From positions 310,001-374,000 of the forward strand of contig NZ_JAQNCZ010000002.1 in the NCBI RefSeq assembly GCF_028369055.1: a stretch of DNA of 64,000 bases, written 5' to 3'. Below are positions 1,203 to 13,445 of the stretch, piece by piece. This DNA comes from Cognatishimia sp. SS12 (GTDB taxonomy: Bacteria; Pseudomonadota; Alphaproteobacteria; Rhodobacterales; Rhodobacteraceae). The notes under the pieces were generated by a model. That model worked only from the letters and a program-made list of their open reading frames with translations, had not been told where the DNA came from and did not search any database. The first letter of the stretch is position 1. Each line of letters begins with the position of its first letter. A program made the translations under genes and the position numbers.

Positions 1203-2246
1203 TCACATCACGCGCCGCGCGGCCTCTCGTGGATCTGTGACCGCGGCGTCTGGCATGGGCTCCATCAATACCCCAAGCCACAGCAGCAAAGGCAGCGCGA
1301 CAAACGCCCCGAGCGGACCCCAAAGCCACAGGCCAAACACGATTGCCAGAAAGATCAGCAGCGGGTTCATCGCCATATGCCGGCCGACAAACAGCGGTGT
1401 GACCACATTGGCCTCTGTGAGGTTGATCAGCAAAAATGTGATCGGCGGCAGCACGGCGTAAACCCCGCTGAATTGCAGCATGCCTGCCAGGGCAAGCCCG
1501 ACCGCGATCAACAGCGGGCCGAGGTAGAGCACATAGTTCATCAGCCCGGCTGCCAATCCCCAGAGGATGGCATATTCAACTCCCAGTGCCATCATGGCCA
1601 GGGCCGTTACGGTGCCCAGACAGGCGTTTACCAATGTGATCGCCGCGAAATAACGCGATACAATTTTGTCAGCACGTTTCAGGCGGTGCTCATATGCGCC
1701 AGCTTGCTGATAAAGTTGATTGCGGGTCAGCGTAAAGAAAAACAATGTCCCGATGAAGGTAAACACCTGCGATACAAAACTGGGTGCAAGCCACAGCGCA
1801 TCGCTGACCGTGGGCAAAGCTGTTTCTTTGCCAGCGTCCTCGCCAGCGCCGTTGCCGCCGACGGTTTCTTCCAGTTCCTGACTGATCGCCTCGATGCCGC
1901 GCAACAGCGATGCCGCGCGATCAATAAGGGACTGCATCACCGCTTTAATGCGTGGCAGCTCCGAAATCAGCACGTTCACCAGCGGCTCTATCAACAGCAT
2001 GATGGTCGCAATGATGAGGGTCGAGAATATCAACAGAAATAGGGCCACCGCCAAGCGCGGTATGCCCAGTCGCTCAAGCCGGTCAGCGAGCGGCGATACA
2101 ACCACGCCAAGCACCAGTCCGAAGCACATAGGCGCAAGGATTTGCTGAGCGAGGTTCAATGCGGTTGTGATGGCGATGATCGTTAAGATCAGCACCATCA
2201 CACGAACGCCGCTGGTGCGCAGCGCCGTTGCGAAAAAGCCGGGCAT
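1203..2246 (-). CDS. AI-2E family transporter (PerM/YdiK-like permease)
   Basis: Polytopic inner-membrane protein of the AI-2E/PerM family, 347 residues, the usual size. Hydrophobic segments are seen near residues 15-70 as a pair, then a soluble stretch (about 75-145), then a cluster of membrane helices in the C-terminal half with the family's typical LLINLTEANVVTPLFVGR region. Transported substrates in this family vary (signals, ions, small solutes) and cannot be told from sequence. It is the last gene of a four-gene minus-strand run, starting 4 bases after the DUF3618 gene, and so probably shares the EcfG-type promoter near 3.87 kb. Confidence 0.88.
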   Translation of the reverse strand: MPGFFATALRTSGVRVMVLILTIIAITTALNLAQQILAPMCFGLVLGVVVSPLADRLERLGIPRLAVALFLLIFSTLIIATIMLLIEPLVNVLISELPRIKAVMQSLIDRAASLLRGIEAISQELEETVGGNGAGEDAGKETALPTVSDALWLAPSFVSQVFTFIGTLFFFTLTRNQLYQQAGAYEHRLKRADKIVSRYFAAITLVNACLGTVTALAMMALGVEYAILWGLAAGLMNYVLYLGPLLIAVGLALAGMLQFSGVYAVLPPITFLLINLTEANVVTPLFVGRHMAMNPLLIFLAIVFGLWLWGPLGAFVALPLLLWLGVLMEPMPDAAVTDPREAARRVM

Positions 2247-2250
2247 TACC

Positions 2251-3015
2251 TTAGTTCAGTGCCGTGCGATTTGGATCACGCGCAGTGGACTTTTTTAGGC
2301 TGGCGCTTGCCGCTTCGTGCAAGCGGTCCATCTCTTCGTGCAATGCGGCCTCGGCTTTAGCGGCGAGCGCATCGCGGTGCGTGCCCAAAAGTTCGTCTTC
2401 GCGACGGGTCGATGGGATCATCGCGCCTATCAGCGCGCCGAGACCCAGTGCGATGGCACCGGCGGACAGCGGGTTCTGATTGTAGTAGGTCCGGGACTGT
2501 GCCGCGGCGTGGGCAGCGTGGGCTTCCACTTGCTCCTGCGCTTTGATTGCAGCTTTGCGCGCTTTCAGCACACGCTTGCGCGCTGACTCTGGCAGGCTCT
2601 CAAGCCCGGCATTCAGCGTCTCTCGCATTTTGCTCGTACGGTAGGATTCGGTGCTCATACCGGTCATCTCCTTCTTCATGGCGGCGTCGGCGGCTTCAAC
2701 ACGCTCGTAAAAGCCAATAAAGGCTTGTTCGGGTGGAACCGCCGTTGGCGGCGCGGGTTGGCGTGGCTGGGTCCGGGCGGTGTTATTCGCGAACATCAGC
2801 GCCAGCCCGGCCCCCGCCATCACCAGTGCAACGGGGTTGCGTTTGGCGGCCGTCAGCGCCTGTCGGCTGAATTCTCCACTCAGGCCATGGGCCGCAGCGG
2901 AGAGTTGTTCACCGAGCGTCTGCGGCGCGACCGTGTCGGAAAGACCCGACAAGGATGCGGTGAGGCGACGACGGTCTTCTTCGACTTGCTTTTGCAGTTT
3001 ATCAGTATCAGACAT
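2251..3015 (-). CDS. DUF3618 domain protein
   Basis: Membrane-associated protein of unknown function with an N-terminal DUF3618 segment (about residues 1-60, beginning MSDTDKLQKQVEEDRRRL), a short hydrophobic stretch near residue 70, an Ala/Lys-rich coiled middle and a second glycine/alanine-rich hydrophobic stretch near residue 200. The ATG at 3015 was chosen because it overlaps the stop of the upstream holin-like gene by 8 bases, a typical translational coupling. DUF3618 and holin superfamily III proteins commonly travel together in alphaproteobacterial stress loci; a role in envelope stress is inferred, not shown. Confidence 0.75.
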   Translation of the reverse strand: MSDTDKLQKQVEEDRRRLTASLSGLSDTVAPQTLGEQLSAAAHGLSGEFSRQALTAAKRNPVALVMAGAGLALMFANNTARTQPRQPAPPTAVPPEQAFIGFYERVEAADAAMKKEMTGMSTESYRTSKMRETLNAGLESLPESARKRVLKARKAAIKAQEQVEAHAAHAAAQSRTYYNQNPLSAGAIALGLGALIGAMIPSTRREDELLGTHRDALAAKAEAALHEEMDRLHEAASASLKKSTARDPNRTALN

Positions 3016-3403
3016 CGGCTGCCTCCTTGATGCTATGCGCGTCCTTCTGGACGTTGCGAATGGTGCGTTTGGGCATGAGCGCATCCGCGTCTAGGCGCGA
3101 TTTACCGATCACAACCAGCACAGCGGCAACGGCCAGCAGAATGCCGCCCACAATCAGCGCGGATAGGCCGGCGCTGATACCAGCAGCAGCGATCCAGGCC
3201 ACCAAAGCAGCTGCGAGTACGTTGAGCGCCACAAGGGCCAGCAGGCCAGCCACGGCAAACATGGCAATGCCGATGCCCGCGCGGGTGGCGTTTTCTTTCA
3301 GCTCGGCTTTGGCCAAGGCAGCTTCGCTGCGCAGCAGCGAGGAGAAGTGGCGCAGGGTGTCCTTAAACAGTTCCGGCACCTGTCGCAGATCAGGATGAGC
3401 CAT
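3008..3403 (-). CDS. Phage holin family protein (holin superfamily III, DUF1469)
   Basis: Small membrane protein of 131 residues. An amphipathic N-terminus (LRQVPELFKDTLRHFSSLL) is followed by two strong transmembrane helices (about residues 42-67 and 75-97) and a short charged tail. Despite the family name it is a chromosomal housekeeping/stress protein in Proteobacteria and there is no phage gene nearby. Start ATG at 3403 is preceded by GGAGGTACCT, a very good ribosome-binding site. It overlaps the upstream gene by 14 bases and the downstream DUF3618 gene by 8, so the three are co-translated. Confidence 0.8.
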   Translation of the reverse strand: MAHPDLRQVPELFKDTLRHFSSLLRSEAALAKAELKENATRAGIGIAMFAVAGLLALVALNVLAAALVAWIAAAGISAGLSALIVGGILLAVAAVLVVIGKSRLDADALMPKRTIRNVQKDAHSIKEAADV

Positions 3404-3824
3404 AGGTACCTCCATTATGGTGATGGGTTGCGTAGGGCTGGGTTTCCGGCTCGCTGGCCTTCAGAAACCGTGTGGCGGCAAAACCAGCCAGCGCGGCCGC
3501 ACCAAGAAACAGGAGCGGATTGCGCCGTGCGAAGCCGCTGACATCCGTGACGGTTTGTTCGATATCCAGGGTGCGCACACGGCGCGCTGCGTCCTCGAGG
3601 TGGCCGGCGACCATATGCGCGGCCTGCGCTTGGATCGAGCCTGGATCAAAGGTGTCCGCCGCCGCATGGGCAGCATCTGCCGTGGTCTGGACCTCGGCAG
3701 CGGCCTGATGCTGCGCAGCATCGGTTTTTTCACGGACGGTGTCGGAAATGGCGCTCTTGGCTTTGTCGCCAAGATCTTTGGCGTAATTGCGCGCTTGTGA
3801 TTCCAGATCAGGAGTGTCGGTCAT
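3390..3824 (-). CDS. Small membrane-anchored helical protein, DUF883/YqjD-like architecture
   Basis: 144-residue protein, first gene of the minus-strand run. The first 110 residues are alanine-rich, charged and predicted helical (coiled-coil like). They are followed by ARRNPLLFLGAAALAGFAA, a single C-terminal membrane anchor preceded by the RRNP motif typical of YqjD/ElaB-type ribosome- or membrane-associated proteins. The tail is His/Gly-rich. ATG at 3824 has AAAGGC upstream; a longer reading frame exists but would run through the EcfG-type promoter at 3861-3886, so it is not used. Precise function unknown. Confidence 0.65.
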   Translation of the reverse strand: MTDTPDLESQARNYAKDLGDKAKSAISDTVREKTDAAQHQAAAEVQTTADAAHAAADTFDPGSIQAQAAHMVAGHLEDAARRVRTLDIEQTVTDVSGFARRNPLLFLGAAALAGFAATRFLKASEPETQPYATHHHNGGTYGSS

Positions 3825-3860: not shown

Positions 3861-3886
3861 AACGCACGGCTGGCCAGTACGGTTCC
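3861..3886 (-). promoter_or_regulatory. EcfG-type promoter (perfect, N17 spacer)
   Basis: On the minus strand GGAAC, 17 bases, CGTT. This matches the general-stress sigma factor consensus and sits so that the transcript would start about 30 bases before the ATG at 3824. Confidence 0.75.
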
Positions 3887-3903
3887 CGATTTCAAAAGAA
3901 AAC

Positions 3904-3924
3904 GACCCGGCGCTGGGCCGGGTC
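3904..3924 (-). terminator. Intrinsic terminator of the PLDc_N gene
   Basis: Hairpin GACCCGG/CCGGGTC followed, on the minus strand, by a T-rich run (GTTTTCTTTTG). It separates the PLDc_N gene from the downstream operon promoter. Confidence 0.65.
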
Positions 3925-3947
3925 ATTTGCGTCGTCTCGTCGCCGAT

Positions 3948-4133
3948 TTAGATATTAGCGGCGGAGGATTTCGGCCCTGCGATCAACCAGGCGATGAACC
4001 CAATAACTGGCAGGATCAGAATCCCCAGAACCCAGAGGATTTTCGCACCTGTCGAAGAGCCTGAGCCGAGCACCTGAATAATTGCGTAGATATCTGCGAC
4101 CAAGATCAACAGGCCAATAATTCCAAATTCCAT
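3948..4133 (-). CDS. PLDc_N domain small membrane protein
   Basis: 61-residue protein made of two transmembrane helices separated by a short polar hairpin, ending LPVIGFIAWLIAGPKSS. This is the phospholipase D-nuclease N-terminal (PLDc_N) module, which occurs alone as a tiny membrane protein and has no catalytic residues. A paralogue with the same ending (LPVIGFVIWLVIGPRP) lies at 10053-10241. It is transcribed alone between its own EcfG-like promoter and a terminator. The function is unknown; the stress link is inferred from the promoter. Confidence 0.8.
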   Translation of the reverse strand: MEFGIIGLLILVADIYAIIQVLGSGSSTGAKILWVLGILILPVIGFIAWLIAGPKSSAANI

Positions 4134-4167
4134 GACATTCTCCCTTCGGTGTGTCGTCTATTAAAGG

Positions 4168-4193
4168 AACTCTGCGCACAGTCATTCGGTTCC
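4168..4193 (-). promoter_or_regulatory. EcfG-type promoter candidate (AGTT, N17)
   Basis: Minus strand GGAAC, 17 bases, AGTT; one mismatch in the -10 part. It would give a leader of about 27 bases for the PLDc_N gene. Confidence 0.55.
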
Positions 4194-4240
4194 GGTTTTG
4201 GTATAAGTTTTTGAAAAATATATATTTTTGAAAAACAAAA

Positions 4241-4262
4241 AAGCCACGCGCGAGCGTGGCTT
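4241..4262. terminator. Bidirectional intrinsic terminator
   Basis: AAGCCACGC/GCGTGGCTT hairpin with a 4-base loop, A-rich on the left and T-rich on the right. It ends the DUF883-like transcript on the minus strand. Confidence 0.75.
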
Positions 4263-4284
4263 TTTTGTTCTCATGGCCGCAGAC

Positions 4285-4563
4285 TTAGAAGCGGCGGCGC
4301 ATGGCCAGCCCCATCAGCAGACCCACACCCACTGCGCCCGCGATGGCCACACCGGGATTCTTGCGGACAAATTCCTGCCCGTCTTTGCTGAGGCGTTCAA
4401 GTTCGCTTGCACCGTATTTCAGACCCGCGTCCAGTTGCTCTTGCGCCTGCTTGACGGTTTCGCTGGCGTGATCTTTTGCGCGTTCGGCCATCTGTACCGC
4501 CTGTTCCTTGGTCGCTTCGGCCTTGGTCTTTTTCGGTTGTGATACGTCTGCTGTGCTGGTCAT
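4285..4563 (-). CDS. DUF883/YqjD-ElaB-like membrane-anchored protein
   Basis: 92-residue protein. An N-terminal Lys/Ala/Glu-rich amphipathic helix (residues 10-70) is followed by EFVRKNPGVAIAGAVGVGLL, a glycine-rich C-terminal membrane anchor, and MRRRF. This matches the architecture of YqjD/ElaB proteins, which tether to the inner membrane through the C-terminal helix and are induced in stationary phase in E. coli. It lies 48 bases downstream of the DUF1328 gene with no terminator between, so the two are probably one transcript from the promoter at 4826-4850. Confidence 0.75.
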   Translation of the reverse strand: MTSTADVSQPKKTKAEATKEQAVQMAERAKDHASETVKQAQEQLDAGLKYGASELERLSKDGQEFVRKNPGVAIAGAVGVGLLMGLAMRRRF

Positions 4564-4611
4564 GGTTAAATTCCTTCAGTGTGATTGGGTCGTTGCGTGG
4601 CAGCCGCGCAA

Positions 4612-4773
4612 TCAGCGCCGGATCACGCGGAGAACGATCGAAACGACAAACAGCGCGAGAAAGATAACAAAGAGTATTTGTGCGATCCCGGCACTGGCAC
4701 CTGCAATTCCGCCGAACCCAAAGAGCGCGGCAACAAGCGCGACGATCAGAAATGTAATTGCCCATCCAAGCAT
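4612..4773 (-). CDS. DUF1328 (YtjA-like) small membrane protein
   Basis: 53-residue, two-helix membrane protein starting [20 protein letters not shown], characteristic of the DUF1328/YtjA family. ATG at 4773 was chosen over an ATG seven codons upstream because GGAAGGAG precedes it at good spacing and family members begin at MLxWA. Function unknown; often found beside other stress-induced envelope proteins, as here. First gene of a two-gene unit with the DUF883-like gene. Confidence 0.85.
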
Positions 4774-4825
4774 GTGATTTCTCCTTCCAGTCATTCGCTA
4801 TGCGTTGAACATCATCTGCTGAGTC

Positions 4826-4850
4826 AACGGTTGGCGCCCCGATTGGTTCC
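4826..4850 (-). promoter_or_regulatory. EcfG-type promoter (perfect, N16 spacer)
   Basis: Minus strand GGAAC, 16 bases, CGTT, reading toward the DUF1328 gene with a leader of about 46 bases. Confidence 0.75.
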
Positions 4851-4897
4851 TCGATTACAGCGCCTTTTCAGTCAGCTTTAGGGCCAATAAGGCAAAA

Positions 4898-4930
4898 GAA
4901 AACGCGCGGCGGCCGGCGCTGCGCGTTTTC
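4898..4930 (-). terminator. Intrinsic terminator of the 4954-5202 gene
   Basis: Ten-base stem GAAAACGCGC/GCGCGTTTTC around a GC-rich loop, followed on the minus strand by TTTTGCC. It lies 24 bases past the gene's stop. Confidence 0.65.
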
Positions 4931-4953
4931 AAAAATTTCGGTATGCCTTGACG

Positions 4954-5202
4954 TTAGCTGTCGTCGCGGGCGTCTTCTTCCGGGCTCTGAACGTCCACGG
5001 TTGGGACCGTCACAGTCACCTCTTTGGTGCCAGTTTCAATGTCGCCGACCTCAGCGTCAAATTTGGGAAGCTGGCCGCCATCAACCGAGACATCAACGTC
5101 AGGAAGGCGTGTTTCCTGAGTTTGGTCGACGTCGATCATGTAGATACCGAAAACCAGCACTGCAACGCCGACGATCGCGGCGATAATGATGGATGGTTTC
5201 AT
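4954..5202 (-). CDS. Small single-pass membrane protein with acidic exported tail
   Basis: 82-residue protein of unknown family. An N-terminal helix (residues 3-22, MKPSIIIAAIVGVAVLVFGI) acts as a signal anchor. The rest is polar, Asp/Val-rich and periplasmic by prediction, with alternating VDV/VTVTVPTVDV segments that suggest beta strands. It is monocistronic, with a perfect EcfG-type promoter upstream and a terminator downstream. The plus-strand protein at 10407-10640 has the same plan (anchor plus acidic tail containing VTVTVEG), so the two may be functionally related. Confidence 0.6.
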   Translation of the reverse strand: MKPSIIIAAIVGVAVLVFGIYMIDVDQTQETRLPDVDVSVDGGQLPKFDAEVGDIETGTKEVTVTVPTVDVQSPEEDARDDS

Positions 5203-5234
5203 TGTCTTATCCTTTCAGGTTGCTTCACATACTC

Positions 5235-5259
5235 AACGTATGCCGATGCCAATTGTTCC
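5235..5259 (-). promoter_or_regulatory. EcfG-type promoter (perfect, N16 spacer)
   Basis: Minus strand GGAAC, 16 bases, CGTT, giving a leader of about 26 bases before the ATG at 5202. Confidence 0.75.
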
Positions 5260-5330
5260 GCGTCAGAGGTATGTTTTTTGACATAGATGTGGGGAAAAAA
5301 AATTTATAAATACCTGTAAAAAAAGAAAAA

Positions 5331-5355
5331 ACCCCCGCAGATCAATTGCGGGGGT
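5331..5355 (-). terminator. Intrinsic terminator of the Crp/Fnr gene
   Basis: Nine-base stem ACCCCCGCA/TGCGGGGGT followed on the minus strand by a long T-rich run. It lies about 115 bases past the stop of the regulator; nothing else was recognised in the 5203-5470 gap apart from this and the promoter above. Confidence 0.75.
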
Positions 5356-5470
5356 TCAGGCGGTGGGCCAGATCGGGGACGGCCCGGTGACGCAGGACAT
5401 CTGCAGTCTGATGTAAGACGCGCGCCGCGGCATAAGGTTCCCGAAAAATTGCAGTCGGTCGCAAAAAAAA

Positions 5471-6196
5471 TCAAACGAGGGGGCGTGTCTGAACCTCGCC
5501 ATCATCGCCAAGCATATGAGTGAGCGCGTCCATATCGTCGACGCTTAGCTCGCCTTTTTGCCAGGTTAAGATCCCATCGCGCCGCAGCTGCGCCAATTGC
5601 TTATTGGTGTGCACAAGCGAAAGCCCCAAGGCATCTGCCAAATCTTGCTGCGTGAAGGGCAGCGAAGTCTTATTGTCGACAACTTGACCAATCGCCAGCG
5701 CGCGGTTGAAAAATCGCGCCATCGCCCATGCGATTTTTTCATAGGCTGGGCGCTGCCCCACCGTGGCCAAAGCATCGCCCAGAAAATGTTCTTCGACTGC
5801 TGCCAAATGCGCGATGTCAAAGCCGCGCGTAGGATGTTTTGAAAAAAGGTCCCAGACATTTGCGCGGTTGAACACGCAAAGGGTCATGGTTGTCACCGCT
5901 TCGACGGAATGGCCCATTTCACCCATAACGCCAGCTTGCAGGCCCAGAAAATCCCCGGGCATCACAAACCCAACCACCTGCCGGCTGCCATCCCGGAGCA
6001 TTTTGTACTTCAGCCCCATACCGGTCAAAACTGTGAATAGCTGTGGTGATTGTTCGCCCTGCGATAAAAGATGGGTGCCGGGCTCCGCCTCCATCTCGCC
6101 GGTTTTGAACCGTTGCATGAACGACAGCTCGTCTTGAGAAAATTCAAGAAATAGTGGCAATCCCCTGAGCGGACAGTTCGTACATTTCGTAACCAT
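5471..6196 (-). CDS. Crp/Fnr family transcriptional regulator
   Basis: 241-residue cytoplasmic regulator. An N-terminal CTNCPLRGLPLF motif is followed by a cyclic-nucleotide-binding-like beta roll (about residues 25-140, with FVMPGDFLGLQAG), a dimerisation helix and a C-terminal winged helix (LPFTQQDLADALGLSLVHTNKQL). Only two N-terminal cysteines are seen, so an FNR-type 4Fe-4S cluster would need other ligands; oxygen sensing cannot be claimed. ATG at 6196 was preferred over the in-frame GTG at 6208 because GAGGTGAGG precedes it at proper spacing. No EcfG motif was seen upstream, unlike its neighbours. Confidence 0.88.
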   Translation of the reverse strand: MVTKCTNCPLRGLPLFLEFSQDELSFMQRFKTGEMEAEPGTHLLSQGEQSPQLFTVLTGMGLKYKMLRDGSRQVVGFVMPGDFLGLQAGVMGEMGHSVEAVTTMTLCVFNRANVWDLFSKHPTRGFDIAHLAAVEEHFLGDALATVGQRPAYEKIAWAMARFFNRALAIGQVVDNKTSLPFTQQDLADALGLSLVHTNKQLAQLRRDGILTWQKGELSVDDMDALTHMLGDDGEVQTRPLV

Positions 6197-6297
6197 AAAT
6201 AGCCTCACCTCTTGAGCGCTTGTCCCGGCTCTGTGTAGCAGACCCTTTGAACGCGATTTTTTTGCCGGCAGCGGTACGACCGCTTAAACGTGGATGC

Positions 6298-6317
6298 GGG
6301 CCGCATTGCTGCGGCCC
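6298..6317. terminator. Hairpin between the Crp/Fnr and PRC-barrel genes
   Basis: Eight-base perfect stem GGGCCGCA/TGCGGCCC with a 4-base loop, 25 bases past the PRC-barrel stop. The T-run on the minus strand is poor, so it may be a weak terminator or an RNA-stabilising hairpin. Confidence 0.45.
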
Positions 6318-6341
6318 GGTCCGAATTTTCAAAGGGGGGTG

Positions 6342-6917
6342 TTAGTCCCAAAAGCCCTCATCAACGCCTTCCATGCTTTCCAGCTGTTCTTCGTTCAGGC
6401 GCGTGACATAGGCATAGGTCTGATCGTCCACAGCCATCAGTTTGACGTCAGCAACAGGGATCATCACGTGTTTGTCGCCGATATCAAGGAAGCCACCGAT
6501 CTCAGCCACAATGCCTTTGAAATCGCCATTTGGGCTCAGAACAATGTCTTCGATCTCGCCGATTTCATTCAGGTTCTCACGCATTTCGGAAAACGCAAAA
6601 TCCATCTCCCAGCCTTCGTCATTGGCTTCGTTCAGCGTGTAGATTGCACCGCCGGTGATGTCGCGGGTGCGGATCAGCTTTGGATTTTCATCCAGGTTGG
6701 TTTCCGCCTCGGCCACAGTGGTGGTTTCTGCGTCAGCTGCAGCATCGGTCTTCAGCTTCAGCTTTTTGTCGGCATCTGCCATCATATTGGTGTCAGCTTC
6801 TACGCCAACGTTGGCTTCGACTTTACCTTCAGTGGTCATGCCAGTCTCGGTGCCCGCCAGCGCGGTGGTCGCGGTCAGAACAGCAGCGAGAGTTGCAGTT
6901 TTCGTAAAGAGTTTCAT
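6342..6917 (-). CDS. Secreted PRC-barrel domain protein
   Basis: 191-residue exported protein. A Sec signal peptide (MKLFTKTATLAAVLTATTALAG) is followed by a low-complexity Ala/Asp/Thr region (residues 25-75). A PRC-barrel-like domain (about 80-165) contains LIRTRDITGGAIY and GEIEDIVLSPNGDFKGIVAE. PRC-barrel proteins of this exported type are common in alphaproteobacterial stress regulons; the ligand is unknown. AGGAGGCAAG lies just before the ATG. A GGAAC-N17-GGTT motif is upstream and a hairpin downstream, so it is monocistronic. Confidence 0.82.
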   Translation of the reverse strand: MKLFTKTATLAAVLTATTALAGTETGMTTEGKVEANVGVEADTNMMADADKKLKLKTDAAADAETTTVAEAETNLDENPKLIRTRDITGGAIYTLNEANDEGWEMDFAFSEMRENLNEIGEIEDIVLSPNGDFKGIVAEIGGFLDIGDKHVMIPVADVKLMAVDDQTYAYVTRLNEEQLESMEGVDEGFWD

Positions 6918-6950
6918 GTCTTGCCTCCTTGCATAAGTTTGTACTTATCC

Positions 6951-6976
6951 AACCCCAAGGGGGCAAAATTGGTTCC
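6951..6976 (-). promoter_or_regulatory. EcfG-type promoter candidate (GGTT, N17)
   Basis: Minus strand GGAAC, 17 bases, GGTT; one mismatch. Leader of about 27 bases for the PRC-barrel gene. Confidence 0.55.
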
Positions 6977-7022
6977 AAGAAACCTACATTTTTTTATCGT
7001 AACATTCTGTATTTAAATAAAT

Positions 7023-7047
7023 AACGCCCCCAATGATTGAGGGCGTT
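7023..7047 (-). terminator. Intrinsic terminator of the nepR-ecfG transcript
   Basis: AACGCCC/GGGCGTT stem with extra CAAT/ATTG pairing inside, then ATTTATTTAAAT on the minus strand, 27 bases past the ecfG stop. Confidence 0.65.
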
Positions 7048-7073
7048 AAATAGTTTTCATCATGATGGATCGA

Positions 7074-7622
7074 TCAGGCTGCAGGTTGTTTTCCGACAAT
7101 CCCCGCGGTCACGCTGTCTGTCAGTTCCATCGCCTCATCGTCATTCAATTGCAGCATTTCAGCCAAGGTGGCCCGGGCCCGGCCAACGCGGCTTTTGATG
7201 GTGCCGACGGCGACATCACAGGTTGCGGCAGCCTCTTCATATGAAAACCCACCAGCCCCGACCAGAACCAGCGCTTCGCGTTGGGTGTCCGGCAATTGAT
7301 TAAAGGCCTGCATGAAATCGCGCATGTTCAACCGCCCGTCGTGGTCCGGTTTTGAGGCCAGCGCAAGCGAGAGCGACCCATCGGCGTCTTCGACCTCGCG
7401 CTTGCGTTTGCGGCGTAGGGAATAAAATGTGTTGCGCAGGATCGTGAACAGCCAGGCCCGCATGTTCGATCCGGGCTTGAAACTTTCGATGTTGGTCCAG
7501 GCTTTCACAAGGGTGTCTTGCACCAAATCATCTGCCGTGGCGGCATTACGGGTAAGGCTCAAGGCAAAGGCACGCAACGCGCCCAAATGCTCTGTCAGTT
7601 CATCGCGCGGATCAACTGTCAT
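7074..7622 (-). CDS. ecfG: General stress response sigma factor EcfG
   Basis: 182-residue ECF sigma factor that directs RNA polymerase to GGAAC-type promoters. Region 2 (about residues 15-80) has DDLVQDTLVKAW and PGSNMRAWLFTILRNTFYS. Region 4 (about 105-165) has QLPDTQREALVLVGAGGFSYEEAA and the recognition helix VGTIKSRVGRAR. The gene is translationally coupled to nepR (11-base overlap) and faces phyR, the diagnostic arrangement of the alphaproteobacterial PhyR-NepR-EcfG partner switch. NepR is known to hold EcfG inactive until phosphorylated PhyR removes it. No PhyR-activating histidine kinase is visible in the window. Confidence 0.93.
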   Translation of the reverse strand: MTVDPRDELTEHLGALRAFALSLTRNAATADDLVQDTLVKAWTNIESFKPGSNMRAWLFTILRNTFYSLRRKRKREVEDADGSLSLALASKPDHDGRLNMRDFMQAFNQLPDTQREALVLVGAGGFSYEEAAATCDVAVGTIKSRVGRARATLAEMLQLNDDEAMELTDSVTAGIVGKQPAA

Positions 7623-7791
7623 TGGAAGATACCTTTTTTCGGTTTTCTTCGGCGGCGCGCAGATCGGCCAACAGGTCGGTAAACCGGTCTGGCAGCGGTT
7701 CCTCTGCCATACCTTCGAACGCTTTCTTCAGATTGCGGTCGATTTCATCAGCGACGCGGTCTTTCGCTGGGGTGCGCTTTTCACTCGACAT
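7612..7791 (-). CDS. nepR: Anti-sigma factor NepR
   Basis: 59-residue cytoplasmic anti-sigma factor. The core AKDRVADEIDRNLKKAFEGM and LPDRFTDLLADLR matches NepR's two helices that bind either EcfG or the sigma-like domain of PhyR. ATG at 7791 was chosen. An ATG 11 codons upstream in frame would leave almost no leader downstream of the perfect promoter at 7825-7849, whereas the chosen start gives one of about 27 bases. It overlaps the ecfG start by 11 bases, consistent with stoichiometric expression of sigma factor and its antagonist. Confidence 0.9.
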   Translation of the reverse strand: MSSEKRTPAKDRVADEIDRNLKKAFEGMAEEPLPDRFTDLLADLRAAEENRKKVSSNDS

Positions 7792-7816
7792 TTTTTCACT
7801 TTGCCCAATTAATCTC

Positions 7817-7842
7817 GGAACCATAACGCATCAGTCGGCGTA
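7817..7842 (+). promoter_or_regulatory. EcfG-like promoter candidate of phyR (CGTA, N17)
   Basis: Plus strand GGAAC, 17 bases, CGTA. It overlaps the opposing nepR promoter almost completely; the -10 part lacks the final T, so it is weaker than the others. Confidence 0.45.
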
Positions 7843-7849
7843 TAGTTCC
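7825..7849 (-). promoter_or_regulatory. EcfG promoter of nepR-ecfG (perfect, N16)
   Basis: Minus strand GGAAC, 16 bases, CGTT. Autoregulation of nepR-ecfG by EcfG is known in the system and fits this site. Confidence 0.8.
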
Positions 7850-7880
7850 TACGAACTGAAAAATTTTTTGGAGTTAGCGC

Positions 7881-8693
7881 ATGAGCAACCCTTCCTCTGC
7901 TGACATGAGCACGCTGATCGGAGCGAGCTTACCTTATCTGCGTCGATATGCGCGGGCACTGACCGGGCAGCAGGATACCGGCGACAAATACGCCGCTGCG
8001 ACACTTGAGGCCATTATCAGCGACCCGTCGCTATTCGCCTCGGACATGACACCCAAAGTGTCCTTGTTCCGCGCCTTCCACGCGATCTGGAGCACGTCCG
8101 GCATGCCGGTCAACGCTGCAGGCGAAACCGGGCTCGCTGCGCGCGCGCAAGCGCACATGGCCCGTTTGACGGAAAACACACGCGAAGCCTTGTTGCTGAA
8201 CACGATCGAGGGATTTTCCTTTGATGAGGTGGCACGGGTCATGCAAATCAACGCGACGGAGGCGGAACAGTTGGTCGAGACAGCTTTGAAAGAAATGAAC
8301 GAGGCCGTCGCCGGCAAAGTCATGATCATCGAAGATGAAGCGGTGATTGCGATGGACCTTGAAAGTATTGTGGCCGATATGGGCCATCAGGTCACGGGTG
8401 TTGCCCGCACTGAAACCGGCGCGATGGACTTGGCGCGCAAGGAACTGCCGGATCTCATTCTTTCGGACATTCAGCTTGCGGATAATTCAAGCGGCACGGA
8501 TGCCGTTGGGCGCATTTTGAAAGAACATGGCAATATCCCAACGATCTTCATCACGGCCTTCCCAGAACGTCTGCTGACCGGCGATGGGCTGGAGCCAACG
8601 TTTCTAATTTCCAAGCCTTACACCGAAGATCAGGTGCGCTCTGCCGTCAGCCAGGCGATGTTCTTTGCGTCGGCCGAAGCGGTCAGTCTCTGA
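7881..8693 (+). CDS. phyR: Anti-anti-sigma response regulator PhyR
   Basis: 270-residue regulator with an N-terminal sigma-factor-like domain (about residues 10-140; region 4-like part with LLLNTIEGFSFDEVARVMQI) and a C-terminal receiver domain (145-265). The receiver has acidic pair E151/D152, phospho-acceptor D196 (LILSDIQL) and the conserved lysine in ISKPYT. When phosphorylated, the sigma-like domain is known to bind NepR and free EcfG. TTGGAG precedes the ATG. Divergent from nepR-ecfG, and followed by a strong terminator. Confidence 0.95.
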   Translation: MSNPSSADMSTLIGASLPYLRRYARALTGQQDTGDKYAAATLEAIISDPSLFASDMTPKVSLFRAFHAIWSTSGMPVNAAGETGLAARAQAHMARLTENTREALLLNTIEGFSFDEVARVMQINATEAEQLVETALKEMNEAVAGKVMIIEDEAVIAMDLESIVADMGHQVTGVARTETGAMDLARKELPDLILSDIQLADNSSGTDAVGRILKEHGNIPTIFITAFPERLLTGDGLEPTFLISKPYTEDQVRSAVSQAMFFASAEAVSL

Positions 8694-8729
8694 CAAAATC
8701 GCAGTCTTTATCTGGCTCAGAAGACCACA

Positions 8730-8758
8730 GCAAACCGGCCTATTGCAGGCCGGTTTGC
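8730..8758 (+). terminator. Intrinsic terminator of phyR
   Basis: Twelve-base perfect stem GCAAACCGGCCT/AGGCCGGTTTGC with a 5-base loop, 37 bases past the phyR stop. Confidence 0.65.
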
Positions 8759-8807
8759 GCATTTCTGCGGGCTGATTTCAAACTTTGAAAAAAATGTGCG
8801 CTTTGTG

Positions 8808-8832
8808 GGAACCAAAACCACAAGTGCGCGTT
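8808..8832 (+). promoter_or_regulatory. EcfG-type promoter (perfect, N16)
   Basis: Plus strand GGAAC, 16 bases, CGTT, pointing into the 8.84-9.19 kb interval, which holds only a short unknown reading frame. Confidence 0.75.
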
Positions 8833-8888
8833 TTCCAATGGATGAAAGACAGAATTTGACAGCGCCCAGCGGCGCAAAGGGGGGGAAT

Positions 8889-9113
8889 ATGAAAGGGTAT
8901 CAAAACGCAACACGCGCGATCTCAAAGCGGTTCCTTCCTGAGTTGAAACAGTTTCACGGTCGTATCATGGAAGCAATTTTGTCGGCGGTTTCGGGTAATT
9001 ACCTCGTGCCGAAAACGCCAGCAAAACTGCCTGTCATGGTGCCGATAGGGCAGGCCCCGACAGGGGTCTGCCCGAAAGGTCGATCCTCGCAACAATGCGT
9101 GAGTCACCGATAG
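8889..9113 (+). CDS. Small protein of unknown function (or non-coding stress transcript)
   Basis: 74-residue reading frame preceded by a purine-rich GGGGGGAAT site and driven by a perfect EcfG-type promoter about 50 bases upstream. The N-terminus (MKGYQNATRAISKRFLPELK) is basic and amphipathic; the C-terminal half is Pro/Gly/Ser-rich with two cysteines and no recognisable domain. A hairpin terminator follows at 9154-9178. Because the protein has no family and its C-terminus looks unstructured, the roughly 350-base transcript may instead be a small RNA, with or without a short peptide. Confidence 0.4.
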   Translation: MKGYQNATRAISKRFLPELKQFHGRIMEAILSAVSGNYLVPKTPAKLPVMVPIGQAPTGVCPKGRSSQQCVSHR

Positions 9114-9153
9114 TGCGATAAAGAGTATCTCTAGACCTAGGGAATGTGTGCTT

Positions 9154-9178
9154 GGCCCGGTGGGACTTCCGCCGGGCC
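9154..9178 (+). terminator. Intrinsic terminator
   Basis: GGCCCGG/CCGGGCC stem followed by ACTTTCTTTGTTTT. It ends the transcript from the 8808-8832 promoter. Confidence 0.7.
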
Positions 9179-9267
9179 ACTTTCTTTGTTTTCTGGATGG
9201 CGACCAGGCGCCCGTGCTCGAACGTCCGGCGCGCGGCAAAGTTCCCAGAATTAATCCCCAAATTTTC

Positions 9268-9293
9268 GGAACGCTGCCGCTGTTGTTGGTGTT
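9268..9293 (+). promoter_or_regulatory. EcfG-type promoter candidate of dps (TGTT, N17)
   Basis: Plus strand GGAAC, 17 bases, TGTT; one mismatch. Leader of about 88 bases before the dps ATG. Confidence 0.5.
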
Positions 9294-9387
9294 GTGCCTG
9301 TGAAGCCACGTGGGCAGCCGCGCTGGGATCATGCAGGACCCGTATCTGCAATACGCCGCCGCTGCCCCTTAGTTGAAAGGACGAGTT

Positions 9388-9885
9388 ATGACACAGCCAT
9401 TAAACGTTGTTCCCTCCACCAAAGAAATTTCTTCAGGTGTACGCCAACCGGAAACGATTGCGAGCGGTCTGGGGCAGGTTCTGGCAGATACCTATCGCCT
9501 GACTTTCAAAACCCATGCCTTCCATTGGAATGTTGAAGGGCCGCTGTTTTATGCCATCCACAATCTGACCGAAGGGCAATACGAAGATATGTTCGCGGCC
9601 GCCGACGTCTTGGCCGAGCGGATGCGCGCCATTGGCCAGATTGCGCCGATGACCATGGCTGAGATCGTGAGCAATTCCGTGATCGAGGACGACAACACCG
9701 CCCCCTCTGCAGGTGAAATGTGTGAAATCCTGGCCGCCGATCACGAACGTGTCGCTCATCGTCTGCACGCGCTGATCAAGATCGCCGGGGATCAAAACGA
9801 CCCAGTGACCGAGGATCTGGCCACTGCGCGCTCTGCTTTCCATGAACAGGCCGCTTGGATGCTGCGCTCTATGGCCGCGAAGTAA
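9388..9885 (+). CDS. dps: DNA-binding ferritin-like protein Dps
   Basis: 165-residue Dps-family protein that forms a dodecameric shell, oxidises Fe(II) with peroxide and protects DNA. The conserved ferroxidase signature is present: KTHAFHWNVEGPLF (H43-N48 region) and D73/E77 in AAADVLAERM. The N-terminal extension (about 25 residues) has one Lys and one Arg, so DNA binding through it is possible but not evident. ATG at 9388 with AAGGACG upstream is used; a TTG five codons earlier is less likely. An EcfG-like motif upstream and the neighbouring regulators point to general-stress control. Confidence 0.93.
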   Translation: MTQPLNVVPSTKEISSGVRQPETIASGLGQVLADTYRLTFKTHAFHWNVEGPLFYAIHNLTEGQYEDMFAAADVLAERMRAIGQIAPMTMAEIVSNSVIEDDNTAPSAGEMCEILAADHERVAHRLHALIKIAGDQNDPVTEDLATARSAFHEQAAWMLRSMAAK

Positions 9886-9941
9886 TTCCGGCGACGGATC
9901 AGTTTTTGTTTTTTTGTGTAACGAGTGAACAGAGTCCCAAG

Positions 9942-9962
9942 CCCCGGTCCATTGGACCGGGG
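9942..9962 (+). terminator. Intrinsic terminator of dps
   Basis: Nine-base stem CCCCGGTCC/GGACCGGGG, 3-base loop, then TTTTTT. Confidence 0.85.
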
Positions 9963-10005
9963 TTTTTTGTTTGGCATCAGACTGCCCCAGAAGGGCGAAA
10001 AGCAA

Positions 10006-10027
10006 AAAGGGGCCGTGTGGCCCCTTT
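10006..10027 (-). terminator. Intrinsic terminator of the second PLDc_N gene
   Basis: AAAGGGGCC/GGCCCCTTT stem followed on the minus strand by TTGCTTTT. Confidence 0.75.
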
Positions 10028-10052
10028 GGTTGTCTGCGGATGTTGAAAGTGA

Positions 10053-10241
10053 TCAGGCTTTGCTTTTTGCCGGGCGTGGACCGATCACCAGCCAGATGAC
10101 AAAGCCAATCACCGGCAACAGAAGGACGAGGATTGTCCAAATGACTTTACGGGTGGTCGATGCGGTTGAGCCAACAATCGAAACGATGGCCCAGACATTC
10201 AGCACCAGTACAAAAAAACCGCCAATTCCTGCGACGTCCAT
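10053..10241 (-). CDS. PLDc_N domain small membrane protein (second copy)
   Basis: 62-residue two-helix membrane protein, MDVAGIGGFFVLVLNVWAI at the N-terminus and LPVIGFVIWLVIGPRP at the end, a paralogue of the 3948-4133 protein. ATG at 10241 has GGAG at good spacing and gives a 27-base leader from the EcfG-like motif, like its neighbours. An ATG at 10253 with AAGGA upstream is a real alternative (66 residues). Transcribed alone toward its own terminator. Confidence 0.75.
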   Translation of the reverse strand: MDVAGIGGFFVLVLNVWAIVSIVGSTASTTRKVIWTILVLLLPVIGFVIWLVIGPRPAKSKA

Positions 10242-10274
10242 GGTCGTCTCCATTCGTTTGTTCCTTAAGAGATC

Positions 10275-10300
10275 AACACGGATGCGGGGGGTTTTGTTCC
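10275..10300 (-). promoter_or_regulatory. EcfG-type promoter candidate (TGTT, N17)
   Basis: Minus strand GGAAC, 17 bases, TGTT; one mismatch, same variant as at dps. Confidence 0.5.
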
Positions 10301-10343
10301 CTTGCGCGCGTGGCCCTGCGATGCCCAACGGAGTCGTTTTGAT

Positions 10344-10369
10344 GGAACATATCCCTGCTCTAGCGGGTT
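10344..10369 (+). promoter_or_regulatory. EcfG-type promoter candidate (GGTT, N17)
   Basis: Plus strand GGAAC, 17 bases, GGTT, about 31 bases of leader before the ATG at 10407. It lies back to back with the minus-strand motif at 10275-10300. Confidence 0.5.
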
Positions 10370-10406
10370 TACCCCACATCACATGACCTACAGAAGGATC
10401 GAAAAG

Positions 10407-10640
10407 ATGGCACAACCAGACCGAAGCGAACACGTGACGACCACCACCACCACCACAGGTGGCGCGGGCATGGGCGTAATCATCGGTGCCTTGGTCGTTG
10501 TCGTGGCTATCCTGGCATACTTCGTATTCGCCGGGGGGACCGATACAGCGTCAGACAGCGTAACAGTCACCGTCGAAGGTGCAGGCGAAGCCGTAGAAGG
10601 CGCAGCTGAGGCTGTCGAAGGCGCTGCAGAGGGCAACTAA
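10407..10640 (+). CDS. Small single-pass membrane protein with acidic repeat tail
   Basis: 77-residue protein of unknown family: a polar Thr-rich N-terminus, one hydrophobic helix (about residues 27-47, GVIIGALVVVVAILAYFVF), then an acidic exported tail with three EAVEGAAE-type repeats. AAGGATCGAAAAG precedes ATG 10407; an upstream in-frame start would run through the promoter motif. The plan resembles the 4954-5202 protein. Monocistronic, with a terminator at 10683-10706. Confidence 0.6.
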   Translation: MAQPDRSEHVTTTTTTTGGAGMGVIIGALVVVVAILAYFVFAGGTDTASDSVTVTVEGAGEAVEGAAEAVEGAAEGN

Positions 10641-10682
10641 TTCACCTGTCTTCGCCCAGCGAACAATGTGGCGAAATTCTCT

Positions 10683-10706
10683 GGCCCCGTTTGAAAAAGC
10701 GGGGCC
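10683..10706 (+). terminator. Intrinsic terminator
   Basis: GGCCCCG/CGGGGCC stem followed by TTTT, 43 bases past the previous stop. Confidence 0.75.
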
Positions 10707-10743
10707 TTTTCGTGCCGGCAGGCTGCGCGCAGAAAGCCTGGTG

Positions 10744-10768
10744 GGAACTTTATGCACCCACGGGGGTT
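10744..10768 (+). promoter_or_regulatory. EcfG-type promoter candidate (GGTT, N16)
   Basis: Plus strand GGAAC, 16 bases, GGTT, about 39 bases of leader before the entericidin gene. Confidence 0.55.
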
Positions 10769-10813: not shown

Positions 10814-10933
10814 ATGCTACGTGCATTTGTGATTATGTTTGCTCTGATGGGCGTCACCGCTTGTGAAACCATCGAAGGGTTTGGCCAAGACGTCGAGAAT
10901 ACAGGTGAAGCCATTCAAGCTGGCGCAAACTGA
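10814..10933 (+). CDS. Entericidin-family small lipoprotein
   Basis: 39-residue lipoprotein. A short signal ends in the lipobox GVTAC (lipidated C17), and the mature peptide ETIEGFGQDVENTGEAIQ is the hallmark of the entericidin A/B (EcnAB) family. AAAGGAAAAACC precedes the ATG. In E. coli entericidins are stationary-phase, sigma-S-dependent; here an EcfG-like motif takes that place. Only one member is present, with no paired partner, so a toxin-antidote role is not supported by this locus. Confidence 0.88.
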   Translation: MLRAFVIMFALMGVTACETIEGFGQDVENTGEAIQAGAN

Positions 10934-11104: not shown

Positions 11105-12124
11105 GTGACCACAGACGCACACCGCTCGCTCACCCTGCGCGATGTCTCCGAAGCCTCCGGCGTATCTGAAATGACTGTCAGTCGCGTATTGCGCAACCGG
11201 GGCGATGTCTCTGAAGCGACGCGGCAAAAGGTTCTGCAGGCCGCGAAAGAACTGGGCTATGTCCCCAACAAGATCGCGGGGGCCTTGGCCAGCCAGCGGG
11301 TCAACCTGGTGGCGGTGATCATTCCGTCTTTGTCCAACATGGTCTTTCCCGAGGTTCTCAGCGGCATCAGCGAAGTGCTGGAAAGCACGGATCTGCAACC
11401 GGTGGTCGGTGTCACCGACTATATGCCGGAAAAAGAAGAAAAGGTGCTTTATGAAATGCTCTCATGGCGCCCGTCCGGGGTGATCATTGCGGGGCTGGAG
11501 CATACGGATGCCGCCCGCGCCATGCTGCGCGCTGCGGGTATTCCGGTGGTTGAGATCATGGATGTCGACGGACGCCCGGTGGATGCGGCTGTTGGTATTT
11601 CCCATCGCCGCGCCGGGCGCGAGATGGCGAACGCTATTCTGAAGGCAGGATATCGCAGAATTGGCTTCCTTGGCACCAAGATGCCGCTAGATCACCGTGC
11701 GCGCAAACGCTTTGAAGGGTTCACCGAGGCTCTTGCCAAGGGCGGGGTTCAGGTCGAAGACCAAGAATTCTATTCCGGCGGCTCCGCGCTCGCCAAGGGG
11801 CGCGAGATGACAGAAGCGATGCTGGCACGCTCGCCGGATCTGGATTTCCTTTATTATTCAAACGATATGATAGGCGCGGGCGGTCTGCTGTATCTGCTGG
11901 ATCAGGGCATTGATGTGCCCGGCCAGATCGGATTGGCGGGCTTTAACGGGGTTGAGTTGTTGCAAGGGTTGCCGCGCAAACTGGCCAGCATGGATGCCTG
12001 CCGCCGTGAATCCGGCCGCCGCGCCGCCGAAATTATCACCGCGCGGGTGAACAACGAAGACGTCGAGAGTTTCGTTGAGCTTTCCCCAACCATCGCCTTT
12101 GGGGATACGCTTAAGCGCCGCTAG
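11105..12124 (+). CDS. LacI family transcriptional regulator (GntR/GluR-like)
   Basis: 339-residue repressor. An N-terminal LacI helix-turn-helix (residues 10-60: TLRDVSEASGVSEMTVSRVL) and hinge helix (PNKIAGALAS) are followed by a periplasmic-binding-protein-like sugar domain. GTG at 11105 is used because AAAGGA lies upstream and the protein then starts just before the HTH. It resembles regulators of gluconate/sugar-acid operons, but no sugar catabolic gene is adjacent, so its target is unknown. TTGCAAAG occurs twice upstream, at 11054 and 11086. It ends in a 4-base overlap with the convergent methyltransferase gene. Confidence 0.85.
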   Translation: MTTDAHRSLTLRDVSEASGVSEMTVSRVLRNRGDVSEATRQKVLQAAKELGYVPNKIAGALASQRVNLVAVIIPSLSNMVFPEVLSGISEVLESTDLQPVVGVTDYMPEKEEKVLYEMLSWRPSGVIIAGLEHTDAARAMLRAAGIPVVEIMDVDGRPVDAAVGISHRRAGREMANAILKAGYRRIGFLGTKMPLDHRARKRFEGFTEALAKGGVQVEDQEFYSGGSALAKGREMTEAMLARSPDLDFLYYSNDMIGAGGLLYLLDQGIDVPGQIGLAGFNGVELLQGLPRKLASMDACRRESGRRAAEIITARVNNEDVESFVELSPTIAFGDTLKRR

Positions 12125-12840
12125 GAAGGCTTTGTAATCATAATACGAGACCGATTCTTCCAAGCGTCACTAATAACTTCTATATGGCCCAGATGTGCTA
12201 AAGTATTAACTTGTGACTCAAATTTCTTCTGCCGAATATCTAATATGATTCTGCCGCCTGGAACGACATTTTCTTCGAAGAATTCCAGGTAACTGTCGAC
12301 CGGAAAGTGAAACCCGCAAGCCAAAAGGCTTACAGCCAAATCAATATCTCCGGCTGAACAGACATCAGTTTCCAAAGGATTGAGTGAGGTTACCTTTACA
12401 TTTCCTGCACCATTTTTGGCCAGAAATTGTTCTGCACGTTGCAGGCTGGAGTATGCTGCGCCTTCCTTGGAGAACCCAAAATGCCGATGATCGTTCTCTT
12501 CAACGTCAATTAGGAATAAATTCGAATTGAAGGCACGGGCACAAAGCAATGAGAAAAACCCGTATCCACATCCAACATCCGCTACCGACTTGGGAACCCA
12601 ACCGTTAAGGGAGCTTAGTATTACTTCAAATTCTTCGGAAATATCTGCAAATGCGCGTTCGGCGAGTAAGGAGCCTTTTTCAGAGACAACCTTGAGCAGC
12701 CCCGTTTCATCACCCTCTGACCATGCTTTGACGAGCTTACCGGCTTTTGACACATCATGCATAACCTCGCTGCGTTGTAATATGATGTTTAAGTAGTCCC
12801 GGTCGTCAAAAACTGAGCTGTCAATTTCTGGTTTTTTCAT
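12121..12840 (-). CDS. Class I SAM-dependent methyltransferase
   Basis: 239-residue methyltransferase with a Rossmann core starting near residue 77: motif I VADVGCGYGFFSLL, acidic motif II LFLIDVEEND, motif at DIDLAVSLLACGFHF, then VVPGGRIILDIRQ. The substrate is unknown; position beside glycosyltransferases suggests modification of a surface glycan or sugar. ATG 12840 is preceded by AGAGGAACAGGA. Base composition is visibly more AT-rich than the flanks, suggesting acquisition. The 136-base gap upstream holds G-rich repeats and the end of a decayed glycosyltransferase. Confidence 0.75.
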   Translation of the reverse strand: MKKPEIDSSVFDDRDYLNIILQRSEVMHDVSKAGKLVKAWSEGDETGLLKVVSEKGSLLAERAFADISEEFEVILSSLNGWVPKSVADVGCGYGFFSLLCARAFNSNLFLIDVEENDHRHFGFSKEGAAYSSLQRAEQFLAKNGAGNVKVTSLNPLETDVCSAGDIDLAVSLLACGFHFPVDSYLEFFEENVVPGGRIILDIRQKKFESQVNTLAHLGHIEVISDAWKNRSRIMITKPS

Positions 12841-12976
12841 TCCTGTTCCTCTTGTGGTTTTCACGACGGGATTTGCCCCGGCTCTTTCTATCGGGAATGC
12901 GTCGTTTTTGATTATTTGGCAATCTGTTTCCTTGATGAACGTTTCATCCTCTGCAAACAATATTTTTTTCCTGTCG

Positions 12977-13337: not shown

Positions 13338-13445
13338 GGACGCATTATAAAAAACGACCTTTTTGAACCAGTTAAAAACCCATCTGGGCCCACAAGATCA
13401 CGGAGTGAGCGTTGAATGTCTTGCGCCTCGTCGCTCGTGTCAGCC

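Follow-up and report, generated by a model that had tools for sequence, protein, structure and literature searches.

In described EcfG systems, stress leads to phosphorylation of the response regulator PhyR, which then binds the anti-sigma factor NepR, so that the sigma factor EcfG is freed and joins RNA polymerase (background as given in PMC5830050). Two described loci are closest to the one analysed here, which lies in a 64,000-nucleotide (nt) stretch of the Cognatishimia sp. SS12 genome, hereafter the window (contig NZ_JAQNCZ010000002.1, here C5; window position 1 is C5:310001). The locus of Sphingomonas melonis Fr1 has the same three core proteins, the same divergent arrangement of nepR-ecfG and phyR, and the same promoter consensus (PMC6599016). 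Target types reported for S. melonis and found in common are a PRC-barrel protein, a small secreted protein, general stress protein 26, a host-attachment protein and a cAMP-binding or Crp-like gene, and a few targets (#1442, #1444, #1446 and #1448) also lie round ecfG (#1447) (PMC6599016). The Cognatishimia locus differs in that most recognisable target promoters are found within 16.6 kb of the regulators and that the targets are chiefly envelope proteins. The second locus, RSP_1271-1274 of Rhodobacter sphaeroides, likewise brings together a kinase, EcfG, a NepR-like protein, PhyR and a Crp/Fnr gene, but its NepR is only 25% identical to others, and the account of the locus in PMC5830050 mentions no clustered EcfG regulon. 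In that study (Li et al. 2018), PhyR is given a role in membrane stress and not in heat, osmotic or oxidative resistance. Our search of the open-licence PMC literature turned up no description of a Rhodobacterales EcfG regulon that clusters at its regulators.

We consider it likely that the Cognatishimia locus is one self-contained general-stress island, in which a PhyK-like kinase/PhyR/NepR/EcfG module stands beside its own regulon, with an envelope bias in this genome. An exact EcfG-type site is defined here as GGAAC-N16/17-CGTT and a relaxed one as GGAAC-N16/17-NGTT; scores in bits refer to a matrix described below. EcfG (ECF15 type; 7074..7622, minus strand) matches Sigma70_r2 (1e-18), Sigma70_r4_2 (5.6e-14) and PhyR_sigma2 (8.4e-14), and passes the cut-off of NCBIfam PRK12546 (‘RNA polymerase sigma factor’; 303 bits, cut-off 270). 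NepR (7612..7791, minus), encoded by the first gene of nepR-ecfG, passes the PF18557 cut-off (3.7e-13; 49.3 bits, cut-off 25.7) and has no NCBIfam match. Divergent from this pair is the gene for the anti-anti-sigma response regulator PhyR (7881..8693, plus), which combines a sigma-like N-terminal domain with a C-terminal receiver domain and passes NCBIfam NF006623 (347 bits, cut-off 240). The putative promoter of nepR-ecfG (7825..7849, minus; exact, 17.7 bits) overlaps that of phyR (7817..7842, plus; GGAAC-N17-CGTA, 15.8 bits). The HisKA2 kinase gene (C5:307329-309002), with a phospholipase-D-like gene in line, is located before the window. Its product matches NCBIfam PhyK over nearly the full length (1.2e-46, residues 18-546), but the score of 159 bits does not pass the equivalog cut-off of 750, and we therefore call the kinase PhyK-like and not PhyK. 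Its start is uncertain, at 40-163 nt from the -10 element, with 112 nt to the preferred ATG.

The genome (3.10 Mb, 12 contigs) holds 38 exact sites, six of which fall within 3861-9245, with none in the remaining window. Six exact sites per 7 kb compare with 0.07 expected (Poisson P ~2e-10), and the list of genome positions shows no more than two in any 7 kb outside the island; 6 exact sites were counted in a sampled background of 380 kb. A preliminary description of 3861-10768 had proposed a dense cluster here, and a genome scan for equal motif density elsewhere found far lower values. The five exact sites that it named (3861, 4826, 5235, 7825 and 8808) are all in place, a sixth (9221-9245, minus) having been missed. 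From 77 phyR loci of relatives, with the window and three syntenic loci excluded, 249 sites were used to train a matrix. In 3861-10768 this gave 13 sites scoring 13 bits or more (3861-, 4168-, 4826-, 5235-, 5417-, 6951-, 7817+, 7825-, 8808+, 9221-, 10275-, 10344+ and 10744+, the sign giving the strand) versus 13 in the 380 kb of background. These include two additions to the NGTT class, the phyR promoter at 7817-7842 (CGTA) and a site at 5417-5441 (CGTC); the preliminary count was twelve motifs in 6.9 kb, and which twelve were meant cannot be told. At nine window sites the -10 element lies 21-52 nt before the called start codon, and for phyR the distance is 38 nt by eye. A reversed control pattern matched 87 times genome-wide, so the exact motif is not enriched as a string. 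The unusual signal is the clustering of sites and their placement before genes, and not the genome-wide number of copies.

The limits 3861-10768 of the preliminary description proved too narrow, as the island reaches about 6 kb beyond the upstream end of the window and measures about 16.6 kb (C5:304190-320768). Three further exact sites lie just upstream of the window: C5:304190, 54 nt before a CsbD gene with a PNPOx-like gene behind it; C5:305824, at 34 nt from a YihY/BrkB gene downstream; and C5:309115, before the kinase gene and the phospholipase-D-like gene in line with it. The whole island thus has nine exact sites versus 0.16 expected, and 18 of the 113 relaxed sites of the genome (38 exact plus 75 others). 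For a promoter census, we counted intergenic sites (according to a codon-usage gene caller) of at least 13 bits with a gene within 150 nt. This rule was passed by 11 of the 18 island sites and by 8 of 94 outside sites, the latter belonging to 7 genes. The outside census took 94 of 95 NGTT sites; the kinase site falls outside the 150-nt limit and does not count towards the 11, and the phyR and 5417 sites, which do not belong to the NGTT class, were excluded.

The outside targets, judged by eye, are a small lipoprotein and a divergent secreted protein in one intergenic region, an OmpA-type lipoprotein, a PRC-barrel-like secreted protein preceded by two sites, a further two secreted proteins and a questionable open reading frame (ORF) of 45 amino acids (aa); six of the seven genes start with a signal or lipoprotein peptide, again by eye. 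Sites at C1:637046 and C1:637160, before divergent genes for a small lipoprotein and a 172-aa secreted protein, form a satellite of the regulon outside the island, and tandem sites at C5:231742 and C5:231825 precede a gene for a 192-aa secreted protein that by eye resembles the PRC-barrel protein of the island. At the upstream island edge (C5:300164-303345) lie a heme-oxygenase-like gene, just below the Pfam cut-off, and a bacteriophytochrome gene with HWE kinase and receiver domains. No matrix site of at least 9 bits was found close before either gene; a light input to PhyR is possible. Just past the other edge, at 12001-14000 of the window, GC content drops to 49% and the ORFs are by eye of methyltransferase and glycosyltransferase type.

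The arrangement recurs in relatives. A PhyR search gave 192 relatives, of which we analysed the best 80 loci (1.60 Mb). These contain 166 exact sites at N16 and 119 at N17, whereas every other spacing between 10 and 25 has 6-20. The ORFs collected up to 160 nt downstream of sites formed 27 families of at least three members, of which one looks like spurious low-complexity ORFs, and in 25 of the 27 the median distance from -10 to start is 24-53 nt. The families include PhyR, NepR, the kinase, a mixed DUF883/DUF3618-like cluster, DUF1328, PLDc_N, Dps, PRC, CsbD, entericidin and p82, an 82-aa protein of the window. With 71-74 loci per bin, site density declines away from phyR and reaches about 0.03-0.06 per kb in the bins farthest out. 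In Ruegeria pomeroyi SZCCDBG043 (locus L072), Phaeobacter sp. HF9A (L073) and C. maritima (L074), the genes from kinase to phyR follow the same order, except that L073 has no p82 and that L072 and L073 have no MscS gene. Similar clustering in many relatives suggests a compact membrane-protection module. Paracoccus loci without an exact site in the fetched DNA are L096, L101, L103, L120, L122, L130, L133, L136, L137, L141, L145, L148 and L150, and L119 has one; loci of this kind may have either another promoter preference or a dispersed regulon.

Within the genus, we compared nine species (completeness 91-99%), including the window genome and C. maritima DSM 28223. Profile matches to NepR, Dps and DUF1328 were obtained in these two genomes only. 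The four module genes tested are missing from the other seven, and this absence is new, as is a GsrN-like small RNA (sRNA) candidate with counterparts in two other genomes, described below. The PhyR sigma2 family does match all nine species; outside the two genomes it hits only frames of 101-187 aa resembling extracytoplasmic function (ECF) sigma factors, which are 31-40% identical to the window EcfG where compared. No PhyR was found in the stretches round these ECF-like genes of the seven species. The stretches, chosen round ECF genes and not round the orthologous island site, have 0-4 NGTT sites in 11-20 kb, versus 15 in the C. maritima stretch. Taken with the domain matches, the spacing specificity and the recurrence, the absence from seven of the nine congeners upholds the central proposal of the preliminary description, an EcfG regulon round its own regulators and rich in small envelope proteins.

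As to the history of the island, the module proteins of the window are mostly no more similar to those of C. maritima than to those of Ruegeria: the identities are 74 versus 78 for PhyR, 85 versus 88 for EcfG and 79 versus 79 for Crp, with p82 as an exception (82 versus 76). For LeuS the values are 88 and 80, and by LeuS identity the window species belongs among its congeners. The trees do not separate transfer from loss: those of EcfG and PhyR conflict, and most of the LeuS tree lacks resolution. As a separate observation, the EcfG distance between R. pomeroyi SZCCDBG043 and Phaeobacter sp. HF9A is about 0.05 changes per site, whereas the LeuS branches sum to more than 0.5; the close EcfG set against the distant LeuS hints at a transfer of the island between the Ruegeria and Phaeobacter lineages.

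The units behind the putative promoters of the window are as follows. On the minus strand, the exact site 3861..3886 (22.5 bits) is positioned 36 nt from the ATG at 3824 of a presumed operon (1203..3824) for p144 (3390-3824; 144 aa, with a hydrophobic segment and no Pfam match), a holin-X protein (PF07332; 3008-3400), a 254-aa protein (2251-3015; DUF3618/DUF883 matches, all below cut-off) and an AI-2E family transporter (1203-2246). The site 4168..4193 (GGAAC-N17-AGTT, 13.2 bits) is 34 nt from the ATG of PLDc_N membrane protein 1 (3948..4133; 61 aa; PF13396, 7e-12), and the exact site 4826..4850 (16.3 bits) is 52 nt from that of a DUF1328 membrane protein (4612-4773; 1e-15), which is followed by a DUF883-like membrane protein (4285-4563; weak DUF883 match, below cut-off). 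Still on this strand, p82 (4954..5202; one hydrophobic segment, no Pfam or NCBIfam family) has an EcfG-type site at 5235..5259 (exact, 18.1 bits; 32 nt to ATG), the PRC-barrel gene (6342..6917; PF05239, 8.7e-7; signal peptide by eye) has one at 6951..6976 (GGAAC-N17-GGTT, 20.1 bits; 33 nt to ATG), and PLDc_N membrane protein 2 (10053..10241; 62 aa), whose start the gene caller puts at 10253, has one at 10275..10300 (GGAAC-N17-TGTT, 13.7 bits). On the plus strand, the site 10344..10369 (GGAAC-N17-GGTT, 17.7 bits) is 37 nt from the ATG of p77 (10407..10640; 77 aa, one hydrophobic segment, no tblastn match in the 80 loci), and 10744..10768 (GGAAC-N16-GGTT, 19.1 bits) is 45 nt from that of an entericidin EcnA/B family lipoprotein (10814..10933). 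The Crp/Fnr-family regulator gene (5471..6196, minus) has no EcfG-type site in this genome. The preliminary description had singled it out as the only gene without one, which is correct for crp but overlooks the genes inside operons (DUF883-like, ecfG, AI-2E and holin-type), which have no sites of their own. The Ruegeria crp orthologue has an EcfG-like site (L072:8471-8496, 10.7 bits) that the window crp lacks.

The best site of the window (8808..8832, plus; exact, 23.4 bits) was correctly located in the preliminary description, but no called gene stands behind it. It would start a putative transcript of about 350 nt (8839..9186, plus), with an intrinsic terminator at 9153-9179. An ORF within it, p74 (8889-9113), was rejected: codon usage does not call it as a gene, it belongs to no Pfam family, and tblastn gave no match to it in the 80 loci. 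We also considered a common RNA, sRNA-B, because a non-coding transcript of C. maritima (L074:12535, motif 23.2 bits) shares a 12-nt exact stretch with the 8808 transcript. Homology is not claimed, since the local alignment is not significant against shuffles (z 0.6, 129/500 as good) and the common hairpin is not the best C. maritima fold. Searches of the uncalled transcripts by blastn against the loci and by Rfam scans returned nothing useful. The sixth exact site (9221..9245, minus; 15.9 bits) is antisense to the 8839-9186 transcript and points into its terminator region, with no gene behind it; it is perhaps the start of an antisense RNA or a chance match. The gene for a Dps-type ferritin-like protein (9388..9885, plus; PF00210, 2.1e-25) is a classical EcfG target. 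The promoter assigned to it in the preliminary description did not hold up, the candidate at 9268..9293 (plus) being doubtful at just 8.7 bits.

One further output may be an RNA. GsrN is a SigT-dependent sRNA of Caulobacter, with homologues proposed in Rhizobiaceae and others outside Caulobacteraceae (PMC5869019); we found no Rhodobacterales example in the main text of that paper (‘rhodobacter’: 0 occurrences). Between crp and p82, about 1.7 kb from ecfG, lies a candidate of about 90 nt, sRNA-A (5318..5409, minus), behind an EcfG-type site (5417..5441, minus; GGAAC-N16-CGTC, 14.4 bits). Its predicted fold has three hairpins, the second with a UCCCC loop and the third an intrinsic terminator; fold z-scores are -4.3 for the window and -3.8 and -4.4 for its relatives. 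The Ruegeria (L072) and C. maritima (L074) loci have an alignable segment in the same place, with an EcfG-type site of its own starting GGAACCTT. The alignment with C. maritima is strong (z 8.2, 0/500 shuffles as good) and that with Ruegeria weaker (z 2.8, 7/500 shuffles). Stem changes were read by eye; the MAFFT alignment sets the window stem 2 out of register. Stem 2 is GGGCC/GGCCC here versus GGACC/GGUCC in the relatives, so that both halves of the stem differ with pairing intact, and stem 3 shows comparable G-C to A-U changes. UCCCC is present in hairpin 2, and not at the 5' end, in all three genomes, unpaired in the window and L072 folds and partly paired in the L074 fold. The segment is thus conserved in two relatives, and we regard it as a candidate GsrN-like RNA, an analogue by position, promoter and loop. 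It would share with Caulobacter GsrN (as described in PMC5869019) the EcfG-type promoter, the place at the EcfG locus and the C-rich loop, features much like those from which that paper proposed GsrN homologues outside Caulobacteraceae, and it differs in that this loop is found in the second hairpin and not at the 5' end.

Wider searches for sRNA-A were less productive. The third syntenic locus, Phaeobacter L073, has neither p82 nor the sRNA-A segment and no covariance-model match, and an Rfam scan gave no family above the gathering score among the matches listed. A covariance model built from two sequences (R1) was rejected: it gives the window copy 25.9 bits and a plain terminator at 10628-10713 as much as 27.5, and is therefore not specific. 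Over the 80 loci, it scored high only in its two training loci, and in five Ruegeria-group genomes it matched only the training genome. In 248 family genomes it had no match, the window genome itself being missed, which makes that search uninformative. With a hairpin pattern, 74 of 394 family genomes gave matches, and a reversed control also matched many; a plasmid search with the sRNA-A region gave nothing useful.

We infer the flow of the signal from work on EcfG, NepR and PhyR elsewhere. Upon stress, the PhyK-like HisKA2 kinase would phosphorylate PhyR, allowing it to bind NepR so that EcfG is released. The released sigma factor would act on the GGAAC-N16/17-CGTT promoters of nepR-ecfG and phyR, of the kinase operon and of the surrounding units. 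Control of the kinase operon, nepR-ecfG and phyR by EcfG would constitute positive feedback; with the nepR-ecfG and phyR promoters overlapping face to face and the kinase operon having its own site, the module would amplify itself once triggered. Predicted outputs with a site are the p144/holin-X/AI-2E operon, both PLDc_N proteins, DUF1328-DUF883, p82, the PRC-barrel protein, p77, entericidin, YihY/BrkB, CsbD-PNPOx, sRNA-A and the 8808 transcript. EcfG would transcribe the GsrN-like sRNA from 5409 to 5318 on the minus strand, and its UCCCC loop could pair with G-rich leaders. As the outputs are mostly small membrane, lipo- or secreted proteins, the response in this genome may reinforce the envelope. 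Among 11 first genes of the island (sites of at least 13 bits, nepR and phyR excluded), nine encode a hydrophobic segment, compared to 121 of 358 background ORFs of at least 100 aa. The remaining two are the PRC-barrel gene, which fails this test and has a signal peptide by eye, and CsbD, whose family scores 0/7. More tentatively, the EcfG system may in part of the Rhodobacterales be a compact envelope-defence cassette and not a general stress regulon, with kinase, PhyR, NepR, EcfG, a GsrN-type sRNA and most outputs on one island that is gained or lost whole; we hold this to be the less probable view.

Several observations weigh against a self-contained, envelope-biased island. The envelope bias is weaker over the 80 loci, where 14 of the 27 downstream families are mostly hydrophobic (14 of 24 after dropping PhyR, NepR and the spurious set; the Dps, CsbD and PNPOx-like families are not). 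Exact-site totals are 38 and 54 in the two module-bearing genomes versus 38-59 in the seven congeners without the module. Exact sites are missing from 16 of the 80 loci, namely 13 Paracoccus loci, L077 (Cognatishimia sp. F0-27), L116 and L149. The training sites were chosen by a GGAAC...[CG]GTT pattern, so the matrix test is independent of the genome and not of the pattern. The census rule is anchored on GGAAC and misses other -35 boxes, so the island share may be overstated. Chance sites do occur at 13 bits (13 in 380 kb), one at 2735+ lies inside a gene adjoining the island, and dps has its weak site only. An alternative is a conventional, dispersed general stress regulon, with only the autoregulated core and some neighbours here and the clustering inflated by counting only near-consensus sites. 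In S. melonis, a motif lies within 100 bp of 166 positively regulated genes (PMC6599016), and the background rate of sites, the seven target genes outside the island and the many motif-downstream families in relatives that are not envelope proteins point the same way. We nevertheless consider a dispersed regulon unlikely, given that promoter-positioned sites of at least 13 bits are 8 of 94 outside the island versus 11 of 18 within 16.6 kb.

Less plausible by far is a stress and envelope gene cluster that shared ancestry or transfer has kept together, with some motifs non-functional and several units driven by other regulators (Crp/Fnr, RpoE, RpoH). A Crp/Fnr-type match is present near phyR in 37 of the 80 loci, R. 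sphaeroides is reported to have a Crp/Fnr gene downstream of phyR (PMC5830050), dps and crp have no strong sites here, and 9221 has no gene; the specificity of motif spacing and the short leaders that recur across the 80 loci argue against it. A compositional artefact, caused by intergenic DNA richer in AT or by matches that arise by chance in a small window, can practically be dismissed: GC content is lower in part of the island (53% at 4001-8000) than in the window on average (58.5%), but the spacing control, the 380-kb background and the whole-genome counts contradict it.

The role of PhyR and EcfG in Rhodobacterales has been little studied, as noted by Li et al. (PMC5830050). The envelope-biased regulon of the island fits the membrane-stress role reported there for PhyR of R. 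sphaeroides, and a clustered regulon of this kind would offer a concrete reason for that phenotype. The island would also place a whole stress pathway, about ten small, little-studied envelope proteins and a candidate sRNA in one segment that could be deleted or moved as a unit.

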